A stretch of 43,618 nucleotides of DNA from a virus. The stretch is taken from positions 1-43,618 of the IMG/VR virus record IMGVR_UViG_3300031576_000112; one strand, given 5' to 3'. The position numbers were made by a program, and so were the translations under genes. Within the stretch, counting starts at the first letter, position 1. Each line of letters begins with the position of its first letter. This document shows positions 8,766 through 43,618 of this stretch, piece after piece. Under the pieces are notes generated by a model. The model made no database searches. It saw only the letters and a program-made list of their open reading frames with translations, and was not told the origin of the DNA.

Positions 8766-8926
8766 TGGCGAGGTCGCGGAAGCAAAAGAACGTATTCGCT
8801 TGCAATCGCCGCGGTTTTGGGCAGCTCTGCGGTCACGATCCATCTAAAGATGGTCCGCATACGGTTGATCCTGGTCGCTTTGTAAAAGGCCACGGAAAGC
8901 CTCGCGGCGTAAGGATGGGGGGATAA
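8765..8926 (+). CDS. Small basic Cys/His protein (53 aa)
   Basis: GTG overlapping the previous TAG, with GAGGA upstream. Basic, with CNRRGFGQLCGH and further histidines. Its TAA overlaps the connector start (TAATG). Natural composition and tight coupling support it; function unknown. Confidence 0.55.
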   Translation: MARSRKQKNVFACNRRGFGQLCGHDPSKDGPHTVDPGRFVKGHGKPRGVRMGG

Positions 8927-16360: not shown

Positions 16361-16807
16361 ATGTACTTAGACGCGCAGCAGTTGTTTTCGGATGCCCAGG
16401 CGCTCACCGCGACTGCGGTTTCCACGAACTTGATCGACCTTGGCTCCGATAGGAATATCGGGGTTGGGGAGCAGATGTGTGTGGTAATCAACTTCGACGT
16501 TGGAGCTGATTTTACCACGACCGATGAGACGTATCAGTTCGACCTTCAGACGGACGATAACAGTAGCTTCAGCTCCGCGACTGTTGTCAACCGCCGAGTG
16601 GTGGCGAACGCCGATGCCGCGTTAATCAACTCGGCCGGGAAGCGGCTCGTATTGGCGCTTCCTGCGGATAATAGTGTCGAGCGGTATCTTCGCTTGAACT
16701 TTACCCTGGCGGGAACTACGCCAAGCGCGACGGTTACGGCTCACTTGCAACCGATGAGCATGGTTCAGGCTGAGGCCGTGTACGCTGACGGTATCACCAT
16801 CAGCTAA
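16361..16807 (+). CDS. Bbp16-like capsid cement protein
   Basis: 148 residues, ATG after GGGAGGAGGATAAAATC. It begins MYLDAQQLFSDAQALTATAVSTN, followed by NIGVGEQMCVVINFDV and GKRLVLALP...RYLRLNFTL, matching the family of capsid decoration proteins typified by Bbp16. It should stabilise the capsid from outside, in amounts equal to the coat, so the strong site fits. Confidence 0.8.
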   Translation: MYLDAQQLFSDAQALTATAVSTNLIDLGSDRNIGVGEQMCVVINFDVGADFTTTDETYQFDLQTDDNSSFSSATVVNRRVVANADAALINSAGKRLVLALPADNSVERYLRLNFTLAGTTPSATVTAHLQPMSMVQAEAVYADGITIS

Positions 16808-16853
16808 AAGCTGATAGAATGGCAGGGGGGTGGCAAATTGCCCCCCTGCCATT
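16799..16853 (+). terminator. Two stem-loops after the cement gene
   Basis: ATCAGCT-AAA-AGCTGAT (16799-16815) spans the stop codon. A 13-bp perfect stem follows (16818-16830 with 16841-16853, GC-rich, 10-base loop). No U-run follows, so it is not a classical intrinsic terminator; it may stop RNA decay, cause partial termination, or mark an RNase III site between high-level capsid genes and the next genes. Confidence 0.65.
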
Positions 16854-16900
16854 GATCTGGGCTACACCTAACACGGTAAGCCCTAAAAAGGAGAAATTAA

Positions 16901-17245
16901 ATGGCAAAGGCAGCCGTCTTAGAAAAGCAGACTCAAGAAGTTGAAGACGTAATCAACGTCAGGGCAAAGCGGGTCGGGTATTACGACAATCGGCGGCATT
17001 ACCCGATTGACTTCAATCACCCGAGAGCCGGGGAAGTCTTTACCCTCCGGGAGAGGTCAGGCGGCCGGAGAAATAAAAAAGGGAAGGTTGAGCCGATCAC
17101 TTTAACCGCTCGACAGCAATTTGCACCTTCCTGGATGGAGGAAGTGACCGAACAGGAAGCCGAATCAGACGCTCAACTGAGGCGGCGAGTCCCTGCAAAA
17201 CGGCAGATCATCACGAAGCCAGCAGCCGACAGAAGCGTAATTTAG
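16901..17245 (+). CDS. Head-associated hypothetical protein
   Basis: 114 residues, ATG after AAGGAGAAATTA. Contains VRAKRVGYYDNRRHYPIDF and HPRAGEVFTLRER, found in short head or neck proteins of related phages. Strongly basic. Function unproven. Confidence 0.62.
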   Translation: MAKAAVLEKQTQEVEDVINVRAKRVGYYDNRRHYPIDFNHPRAGEVFTLRERSGGRRNKKGKVEPITLTARQQFAPSWMEEVTEQEAESDAQLRRRVPAKRQIITKPAADRSVI

Positions 17246-40184: not shown

Positions 40185-40543
40185 AAGAAATCTGGAGGCC
40201 AGTGGTCGGGTATAAAGGTTTGTATGAAGTGAGCGATCTTGGCCGAATACGCTCAGTGTCCCGACTTGTGCGCGGTCCTCGTGTATTGCGCGTTGCCTAC
40301 GGGCGAATGATGTCATTACATAGAGAGAAAGGGGATTACTTTAAGGTCAATCTCTGGAAGGATGGGTTCGGACATAAATTTTATGTCCATCGTCTAGTCG
40401 CCGCCACATTCTGCCGTGGAACTGGACATGACGTTAATCACCTTGATTTGAATAAGGGGAATAATTTGGCGACTAATTTAGAATGGTGTAGCCGACAGGA
40501 TAATATGAAGCACTATTTTAGGAGGATTCGTGGCAATAACTGA
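40181..40543 (+). CDS. HNH homing endonuclease with NUMOD4 motif
   Basis: 120 residues. NUMOD4: EIWRPVVGYKGLYEVSDLGR-IRS at the N-terminus. HNH: YVHRLVAATF (H70), DVNHLDLNKGNN (H87), then NLEWCSRQDN (N108). Complete and plausible as a free-standing mobile endonuclease. ATGA overlap with the previous gene; its stop overlaps the exonuclease start. Confidence 0.9.
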   Translation: MKEIWRPVVGYKGLYEVSDLGRIRSVSRLVRGPRVLRVAYGRMMSLHREKGDYFKVNLWKDGFGHKFYVHRLVAATFCRGTGHDVNHLDLNKGNNLATNLEWCSRQDNMKHYFRRIRGNN

Positions 40544-41457: not shown

Positions 41458-42300
41458 ATGGCGACGACCGCGGAAGTTGGGAAGCAGTTGGCGAAGACGG
41501 AGCAGCCGAAGGGCTTGAGGGAATTGATTGAGAGCTCGGTAAAGGAGCTGGCTCGGGCGCTGCCTGAGCACATGAGGCCGGAGCGCCTGGTTCGGATCGC
41601 GCTGACTTGCATCCGGACGACCCCGGAGCTGGCGAATTGTACCCAGGAATCTTTCCTCGGGGCCTTATTCACGGCCGCGCAGATCGGGATAGAGCCCGTC
41701 GCTGGACAAGCCTATATCCTGCCATTCAATAATTCACGCAAGAAGGCTGACGGCTCTTGGCATAGCGTCAAAGAGGCTCAGTTTATCCTTGGTTATAAGG
41801 GACTTGCAGCCTTATTCTATCGCCATGAAAAGGCGGTTCAGCTCTCCTGGGGAGTCGTCTACGTTGGCGATGATTTCACCTATGAATATGGGACCGATCC
41901 GAAGCTTCGGCACATCCCGGCCATTAAGGACCGCGGGGCCGTCACCGGATATTATGTCGTGGCCCATCTAGCGAACGGCGGTAAGCCGTTTATGTACATG
42001 AGCCGAGAGGACTGTTTGGATCACGGCCGGAAGCACTCGAAAACCTTTGATAAAAAGAAAGGAGAGTTCTACGAAAAAAGTCCTTGGCGAACCAGCGAAG
42101 AACCTATGTGTCTAAAGACCGTCCTTATCCAGCTCGGGAAACTCCTTCCTCTATCGGTTGAAATCCAGAGTGCGATTGCAGCGGACGAGACGAGCAGAGA
42201 TTACCGGAATGGAATCGACAATGCGCTGGACCTGGTTCCTACTACAACCTGGGACGAGCCTCCAGCGGCCGTGGAGCCCGAGCAAGCGCCAGGGGCTTAA
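41458..42300 (+). CDS. recT: RecT single-strand annealing protein
   Basis: 280 residues with the RecT core: ARALPEHMRPERLVRIALTC, CTQESFLGALFTAAQIGIEP, GQAYILPFNN, QFILGYKGLAALFYR and SPWRT...MCLKTVLIQL. It anneals complementary strands and works with the exonuclease just upstream. The ATG lies one base after the exonuclease stop, with AAGGAGAAATAAA in front. C-terminal tail is acidic and Pro-rich. Confidence 0.94.
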   Translation: MATTAEVGKQLAKTEQPKGLRELIESSVKELARALPEHMRPERLVRIALTCIRTTPELANCTQESFLGALFTAAQIGIEPVAGQAYILPFNNSRKKADGSWHSVKEAQFILGYKGLAALFYRHEKAVQLSWGVVYVGDDFTYEYGTDPKLRHIPAIKDRGAVTGYYVVAHLANGGKPFMYMSREDCLDHGRKHSKTFDKKKGEFYEKSPWRTSEEPMCLKTVLIQLGKLLPLSVEIQSAIAADETSRDYRNGIDNALDLVPTTTWDEPPAAVEPEQAPGA

Positions 42301-42689: not shown

Positions 42690-42896
42690 ATGCCAAAAGT
42701 GGTTATCGAAATCGAAGATGCGCTTCACGGAAAAGTCCAGGTGAAAGCGACTCCAAATCTTGCGACGCTGGCGAAGCTGCGGATCGACGGAGATAATTTT
42801 TCTCCGGCCGAGTCCGTGGCGATCATAGCTCTGCGCGAGATTCACAAGCAATTTAAAAAATCCGAGGAGTTGTATCGGAAGGGATTGATCCAATAA
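42690..42896 (+). CDS. Small early protein (68 aa)
   Basis: ATG after TAGGAGGATTC. A strand pair (KVVIEIEDALHGKVQVKATP) is followed by two helices (AESVAIIALREIHKQFKKSE). Common phage layout, unknown function. Last gene before the noncoding region. Confidence 0.65.
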   Translation: MPKVVIEIEDALHGKVQVKATPNLATLAKLRIDGDNFSPAESVAIIALREIHKQFKKSEELYRKGLIQ

Positions 42897-42904
42897 AATT
42901 TTTC

Positions 42905-42934
42905 TTGACATGAAAATGCTCTTTGTGCTTTAAT
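42905..42934 (+). promoter_or_regulatory. Sigma70 promoter upstream of the structured RNA
   Basis: TTGACA (42905-42910), 18-base spacer, TTTAAT (42929-42934). Predicted start near 42941-42942, which places the RNA 5' end right at the first stem of the pseudoknot. A second TTGACA at 42936 lacks a good -10. Confidence 0.7.
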
Positions 42935-42941
42935 GTTGACA

Positions 42942-43036
42942 TCGTTTGCCATGAACAAAAATAGATATGCGCCTCTGGCGCAGAAAAGTCCCGGTTCCAA
43001 TTCTAATGGCGAACGAGGAGCCGGGCATTTCTTTTT
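42942..43036 (+). ncRNA. Candidate pseudoknotted small RNA
   Basis: Two nine-pair helices interleave. S1: GTTTGCCAT (42944-42952) with ATGGCGAAC (43006-43014), one G-U pair. S2: CCCGGTTCC (42990-42998) with GGAGCCGGG (43017-43025), one G-U pair. S1's 3' arm lies in S2's loop, so this is a true pseudoknot. A five-pair hairpin GCGCC-TCT-GGCGC (42969-42981) sits between. ATTTCTTTTT follows S2, as in an intrinsic terminator. A frame from ATG 42951 (39 codons) has no ribosome binding site and starts within S1, so it is not called. Family unknown. Confidence 0.62.
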
Positions 43037-43281
43037 GGGCGCTTGGAAGTCGCCCAGACGCATACGTTAGATAATAGCTCCAATCTGGGACCTGGCCCTA
43101 CGAGATTTCCAGGCAGTAGTTCTTGGGGAACTCCCGACGAGATAAAACGGGTATAACCTGTCGGCCCCGGCTTGATTGTAGAAAGTAATTAAGCCATCCC
43201 TAAAGACTGCTCTGAAGTTCAGCGCTTAGAGGCTATCAAGCATAAAGCGTTTGCCCCGGAATTAATAGAAGGAAAAAAGAA
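43037..43281 (+). other. Structured noncoding region after the small RNA
   Basis: No credible gene. Several stems are visible: GGGCG/CGCCC (43037-43055), CCTGG/CCAGG (43091-43113), ACGGGT/ACCTGT (43147-43161) inside CCGAC/GTCGG, and a nine-pair stem GGCTTGATT/AATTAAGCC (43169-43195) with loop GTAGAAAGT. The octamer CGTTTGCC of stem S1 (42943) recurs at 43248. It may be leader RNA for the gene at 43282, a second RNA, or a replication or packaging site. Confidence 0.5.
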
Positions 43282-43618
43282 ATGAAATGTTGCACCTTGC
43301 ATGGCGAAGCCGTCCTGGTGGTCCACGAATTAGCCTCCTGCCCATTTTGCCCCAATCTACTAGCAAGCGCGGGCGAACTCAAGCTCTTAGAAGCAGAACC
43401 TTCGATCCCAAAACGCAAAGAAACTTTTCAGGCTCTCATGGATGGGATTCTCCGAGATTACATGAAGCTTACTCCTGGGAACCCAGACCCGAGAGAGAAG
43501 GGCGCGGTGAGCGCAGCCTATCGCAGATTTGGGCGGGCAGTCCGAGACATTTTGGCGTTGGCAAAGGATGATCCGATAGCAGCGCGGCGCGGGATTGACG
43601 CGATAGGAGATCGGATGG
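43282..43618 (+). CDS. 5' part of junction-spanning small zinc-motif protein
   Basis: ATG after AGAAGGAAAAAAGAA. Begins MKCCTLHGEAVLVVHELASC-PFCP: cysteines and histidines for a zinc site. The frame continues through the repeat to the stop at 238-240 after wrapping (149 residues in total). The N-terminus resembles the protein at 39333. The sequence after it is helical and basic. Function unknown. Confidence 0.75.
   Translation, partial: MKCCTLHGEAVLVVHELASCPFCPNLLASAGELKLLEAEPSIPKRKETFQALMDGILRDYMKLTPGNPDPREKGAVSAAYRRFGRAVRDILALAKDDPIAARRGIDAIGDRM
43492..43618. repeat. Terminal direct repeat, right copy
   Basis: Identical to bases 1-127; see that entry. Counting it once gives 43,491 bp. Confidence 0.95.

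Follow-up and report, generated by a model that had tools for sequence, protein, structure and literature searches.

A putative phage leader RNA with an intrinsic terminator built into a pseudoknot upstream of replication genes

The element at positions 42905-43036 of the window, by which we mean the whole stretch of 43,618 nucleotides analysed here (IMG/VR record IMGVR_UViG_3300031576_000112), has a layout and a position that are common to the window phage and at least six distantly related phages, while the letters are unrelated. Judged from its sequence features, it is probably a leader RNA that is conserved in structure and has an intrinsic terminator built into a pseudoknot, which would attenuate the expression of a replication gene. 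The preliminary description of this DNA had reported a promoter-driven pseudoknot with a U-tract at 42905-43036, and this observation was confirmed.

The first and last 127 bases of the window are identical (1-127 = 43492-43618, a direct repeat), so the contig is circular, with a length of 43491 bp. The element is located on the plus strand inside a 385-nt gap between the ORFs 42690-42896 and 43282 onward. On the upstream side, a 68-aa ORF ends at 42896. The downstream ORF, also on the plus strand, runs from 43282 to 43618 and then crosses the circle join to 128-240 (149 aa). The sole overlapping ORF of at least 60 aa, 42842-43063 on the minus strand (73 aa), was judged mechanical, and the claim that no gene explains the element therefore holds. 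A RecE-like gene is found at 40530, a RecT-like gene at 41458 and the portal gene at 8926. A larger structured RNA over 43036-43281 was suggested by a low energy z-score but was unremarkable against windowed controls and was discarded.

The promoter consists of the -35 hexamer TTGACA at 42905-42910 (6/6 consensus) and an extended -10 element, TGC-TTTAAT, at 42926-42934 (hexamer 42929-42934, 5/6 consensus plus TGN). The sigma-70 match is thus 11/12, with an 18-nt spacer that ends in TGC. One promoter scan skipped it because that scan demands an A at position 2 of the -10 hexamer. Transcription is predicted to start at about 42941, at or beside the first strand of helix A, A1 (42942-42952, TCGTTTGCCAT), in line with the near-consensus promoter and start point that had been proposed. 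A1 forms 11 pairs, including one G-U, with A2 at 43006-43016 (ATGGCGAACGA). Helix B is formed by B1 (42990-42998, CCCGGTTCC) and B2 (43017-43025, GGAGCCGGG) and has 9 pairs, one of them G-U and seven G-C. The two helices interleave and B has nine pairs, as described earlier, whereas A was found to be longer than the nine pairs given for it. The small hairpin that had been noticed between the helices, TGCGCC-TCT-GGCGCA at 42968-42982 in the A1-B1 loop, is perfect, with 6 bp and a 3-nt loop; L249, one of the related leaders described below, also has a hairpin at that place. A 7-nt linker, L2 (42999-43005), connects B1 to A2, and B2 abuts A2 directly (L3 = 0 nt). The U-run was likewise found where it had been placed after the helices, as a U-tract directly 3' of B2 at 43026-43036 (CATTTCTTTTT = CAUUUCUUUUU), which is the predicted zone of intrinsic termination; the comparable tract in G058, another of the related leaders, reads TTTCTTTTT. 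With a stem of 7/9 G-C followed by a U-tract, B matches an intrinsic terminator, although its loop of 18 nt is longer than typical; together, helix B and the U-tract make more sense as an intrinsic terminator within the pseudoknot. Eight nucleotides of A1 (CGTTTGCC) recur at 43246-43253, and in a transcript that reads through the terminator this copy, which precedes the 43282 start codon by 28 nt, could pair with A2.

How unusual such a site is was examined within the window. Interleaved pairings of 9+9 bp (G-U allowed, within 110 nt) occur 62 times, which makes the topology by itself weak evidence. The element is the unique site on either strand at which both stems reach at least 20.5 kcal/mol of stacking, and whole-window shuffles gave 0.17 such strong sites per strand. 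Of 2000 local shuffles, one reached the summed stem energy. The nested fold by itself is not conspicuous (z -1.4), and a search by nested folding would miss the element. The lowest nested-fold z-score in a sparse plus-strand scan was observed elsewhere, at 16801-17050 around the genes 16361-17245 (-5.5 for the 250-nt stretch).

The searches for known families agreed with the claim that no named family has this arrangement. No Rfam 15 covariance model scored above its gathering threshold in the window, which gave weak chance matches only, and ten related leaders had zero matches. An HDV-like ribozyme was rejected, as its internal hairpin would fall between B1 and A2. Sequence relatives of the element were not found by blastn against 50,697 phage records, by matching an exact degenerate pattern to 2.9 million viral contigs, by a DNA search of 50 portal relatives or by a search with the neighbouring 68-aa gene.

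Recurrence was tested with the layout itself, promoter, A1, B1, A2, 0-1 nt, B2 and U-tract, at loci that were taken from IMG/VR and GTDB through relatives of the portal, RecE and replication genes. Early matches were L116 and L113/G058, in phages whose RecT is 61% and 64% identical to the window RecT; both have a near-consensus promoter right before A1 and a replication initiation gene directly downstream. Searches for initiator relatives added L249, L446 (= L381, promoter 12/12), L378, L401, L393 and L404, and the RecE set added L133. In L250 (G054), both stems are present and a clear promoter is missing. A promoter-first descriptor was then run over 2.93 Mb on both strands, with a promoter of at least 10/12 near A1, an A2-B2 gap of at most 1, a U-tract and E <=-34. 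It gave 9 matches against 0.25 per shuffled set, and 16 against 4.0 when bulges were allowed, which correspond to 8 unique sites; a more permissive bulged-helix model proved too loose and was tightened. The seven strongest sites all head replication operons, within loci that overlap partly and of which some were picked around initiators; three of the seven (window, G058 and L116) come from loci fetched for other genes. The eighth, L125 minus-strand 503-594, passes the descriptor but is antisense in RecE and was taken as chance. Membership amounts to seven strict members (window, G058 (L113/L248), L249, L116, L381 = L446, L401 and L393) and about four relaxed ones. Most initiator loci are without the element, and most of the sampled initiators of cultured phages sit inside operons without such a leader. 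No common primary sequence was noticed among the layout members. Since they were found by pairing and are otherwise unalignable, covariation counts would be circular, and the support is the recurrence of the architecture, not covariation within an alignment. In L447, both stems are apparently kept without a U-tract, as read by eye, which would fit a role other than or beyond termination.

The strongest evidence for a real helix A and for its selected abutment on B was obtained in a test that did not use helix A for selection. Leaders were chosen among 269 initiator loci by a promoter of at least 10/12 and then a U-tailed stem, which gave nine unique leaders. The best-pairing A helix was then sought with the gap left free and compared with 300 shuffles per leader. 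For five of the nine (G058, L249, L116, L446 and the window, where the pairing found was that of A1 and A2, p=1/301), the best A helix beat 300/300 shuffles, and in all five A2 ends 0 or 1 nt before B2. L401 had a gap of 0 at p 0.07, L404 and L445 were negative, and in L459 (p 0.04) A2 lies at the opposite end of the loop. The L459 leader (1020-1200) is a variant with an 11/12 promoter, a 19-bp U-tailed stem and a 6-7-bp pairing, CTAGGA/TCCTAG, in which A2 abuts B1 instead of B2.

The distances between the strands would be compatible with an H-type pseudoknot of interleaved A and B. Argued from A-form geometry, loops of 37 (L1), 7 (L2) and 0 nt (L3) should be feasible when A2 and B2 form a continuous strand. 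As L3 is also 0-1 nt in the remaining strict members, A2 and B2 can be one fully paired strand of about 20 nt, with A and B coaxially stacked. By the same argument, an L2 of 7 nt (window and L446) to 9 nt (G058 and L249) would suffice to span helix A. In the strict members, the two helices use separate bases, unlike the pairings of a classical terminator/antiterminator, which favours coexistence over mutually exclusive pairing; this separation is partly built in, as the descriptor barred A/B overlap, and L401 has a possible alternative pairing.

The downstream genes were assigned by PHROG. G058 and L249 precede a replication initiation protein (phrog_9474) and L116 precedes phrog_1408. DnaD-like helicase loaders (phrog_8489/5708) follow in L401, L378, L446, L390 and L459, and replisome organizers (phrog_13246/4880) in L133, L393 and L404, with one other gene in between in L393. 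The start codon is located 14-25 nt after B2 in most members, in which the leader thus makes up the entire 5' UTR, and in L116, L249 and L459 a Shine-Dalgarno sequence lies immediately 3' of the U-tract. The string TTTTT(T)ATTTGGAG recurs at the junction of U-tract and Shine-Dalgarno in otherwise unrelated leaders (L373:1479-1500, L249:1977-2000 and L459:1165-1200). The window has 245 nt between the U-tract and the 43282 ORF, and this ORF matches the G058/G054 initiators weakly, at the C-terminal motif KGLSWNLDTVAKWFPDW only (E 0.0015-0.0034; hhalign prob 75, E 2.4e-5 over 35 columns). The assignment to replication in the window therefore leans on synteny in the relatives. The earlier idea of a phage regulatory RNA with promoter and pseudoknot gained support from the recurrence of the layout, and both this idea and a link to replication fit because the genes downstream are replication initiators; no support was found for a packaging RNA, which had been considered as well.

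Other candidate structures were observed in these loci. Upstream of RecE in another phage (L115:3132-3310), a promoter TTGACA-17-TATACT is followed by a 16-bp pairing that shares its 3' strand with a U-tailed terminator, where this strand is the left arm; the arrangement is that of a classical attenuator with antiterminator and terminator. It is followed by a second pseudoknot-like terminator at L115:3327-3424. The replication-gene leader L002:1945-2067 has a different structure at the same place, an apparent three-way junction in which GGGTGGTTGC...GCGACCACCC enclose two hairpins. Non-coding stretches after recombination genes, L105:7075-7858 and L114:8500-8580, contain tRNA T-arm-like pieces (GGGGTTCGAATCCCCG), for which ARAGORN, run on L105, called no tRNA.

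In the mechanism that we favour, the strong promoter would start the RNA at or near A1 and helix A would fold first. Helix B and the U-tract would then terminate transcription, and most transcripts would stop at around 43035, giving a pseudoknotted RNA some 95 nt long. Read-through transcripts alone would reach the replication gene, and the fraction of read-through would set the initiator supply. Since A forms first in this scheme and B2 follows A2 without a gap, coaxial stacking of B on A is expected, and A would set the efficiency of the terminator, which it may either support or gate. The A/B balance, and with it the dose of the initiator, could be shifted by the released RNA itself, by an antitermination factor of host or phage origin, or by the initiator protein. 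Termination in the window may be inefficient, as the U-tract starts with CA and the B loop has 18 nt.

An RNA feedback or immunity circuit like that of P4 is an unlikely alternative. The terminated RNA would expose A2 and pair in trans with A1 of new transcripts, shifting the A/B balance towards premature termination before the replication gene, and would so limit the copy number or give self-immunity. The position in the leader of replication genes, the terminated leader and the cis repeat-complement pair all agree with this, as do the pairing that is kept while sequences turn over completely, as self-specific RNAs should, and the downstream A1 copy at 43246. That copy occurs in the window only, however, and no third copy was seen on inspection of L249; of the two-site complementarity of the P4 seqB type, the upstream site is present. 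No trans target was better than shuffled RNA, A and B abut without competing for the same bases, and no lysogeny gene was recognised among the ORFs tested.

It is also rather improbable that the pseudoknot is a protein-binding operator, at which the initiator or another phage protein would repress the translation or transcription of its own mRNA. T4 gp32 represses its own mRNA through a leader pseudoknot, and the element adjoins the gene to be controlled in all strict members except the window and L393; the Shine-Dalgarno sequence directly after the U-tract in L116, L249 and L459 would suit an operator as well. One architecture, however, precedes initiators of several PHROG families without a common primary sequence for a protein to read, and an operator leaves the U-tract unexplained.

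It is very unlikely that the upstream early operon simply ends here in a plain intrinsic terminator, next to an unrelated promoter and with a coincidental helix A. B and the U-tract by themselves are acceptable as a terminator and interleaved 9+9 pairings are common by chance, but the promoter lies upstream of the terminator and would fire into it. The helix A result in five of the nine leaders chosen without A, always with an L3 of 0-1, and the enrichment of the layout over shuffles also contradict coincidence. A pseudoknot riboswitch that senses a metabolite and uses the terminator as its expression platform, a proposal with precedents in pseudoknot leaders with terminators (preQ1, SAM-II and HMP-PP), is scarcely credible, as aptamers conserve their binding-site nucleotides whereas the members here have no core sequence in common, and no Rfam riboswitch matched.

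The control of replication initiators sets the timing and the copy number of a phage infection. Conservation of the leader only as promoter, pseudoknot and terminator makes it invisible to sequence and covariance searches, and RNA databases would lack such leaders, which the present layout descriptor does detect. It is conceivable, though doubtful, that they form a widespread, self-specific class of phage RNAs in which the terminated leader with its pseudoknot exerts feedback on its own transcript while this is being made, and controls copy number and superinfection immunity, with the sequence free to diverge and each phage recognising only itself. If confirmed, the favoured terminator-pseudoknot leader would make it possible to study, in a testable system, a terminator that needs its hairpin to form within a pseudoknot, as well as the rationing of replication proteins by phages.

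The literature searched, with few subscription papers in its scope, yielded no description of phage replication operons at which a pseudoknot terminator is conserved in layout alone, and the leader was compared with known systems that are alike in part. The order of promoter, pseudoknot RNA, terminator and gene is that of Type III toxin-antitoxin systems (ToxI). There, a ToxN/AbiQ-like toxin gene is adjacent, whereas here the downstream genes are replication initiators by PHROG, and the four leaders checked had none of the tandem or direct repeats expected of a ToxI RNA. Terminator read-through in a leader, as proposed here, sets initiator expression in the antisense-controlled rep attenuators of the pT181/pIP501 type. 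These attenuators of Gram-positive plasmids need a convergent antisense promoter, and the best reverse promoter was no better than shuffles in nine of ten members (L401, 3/60). The CI RNA of P4 pairs with seqA and seqC and terminates transcription of the P4 replication genes early (PMC4825925). Alike are the untranslated leader of replication genes, the internal complementary segments and the premature termination, which is predicted here; in P4 the RNA is processed, acts in trans and has two target copies, whereas the present leader has one pair and a cis pseudoknot with a terminator. IsrK of Gifsy-1 is the leader RNA of a prophage and exists in a short and a read-through form (PMC4825925), and there too an intrinsic terminator in the leader yields a short RNA and a read-through mRNA. 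It precedes anti-repressor genes and acts by activating translation, and no such structure or target was found here. In the HMP-PP (thiS) riboswitches, the aptamer is embedded in the terminator (PMC6478431), so that pseudoknot and intrinsic terminator likewise share one compact leader. Their alternative structures are mutually exclusive and their core is conserved, whereas A and B can coexist and have no conserved sequence. Each ingredient is already known from P4, IsrK and HMP-PP, and the leader looks like an apparently unrecorded way for phages to limit the amount of their replication starter.
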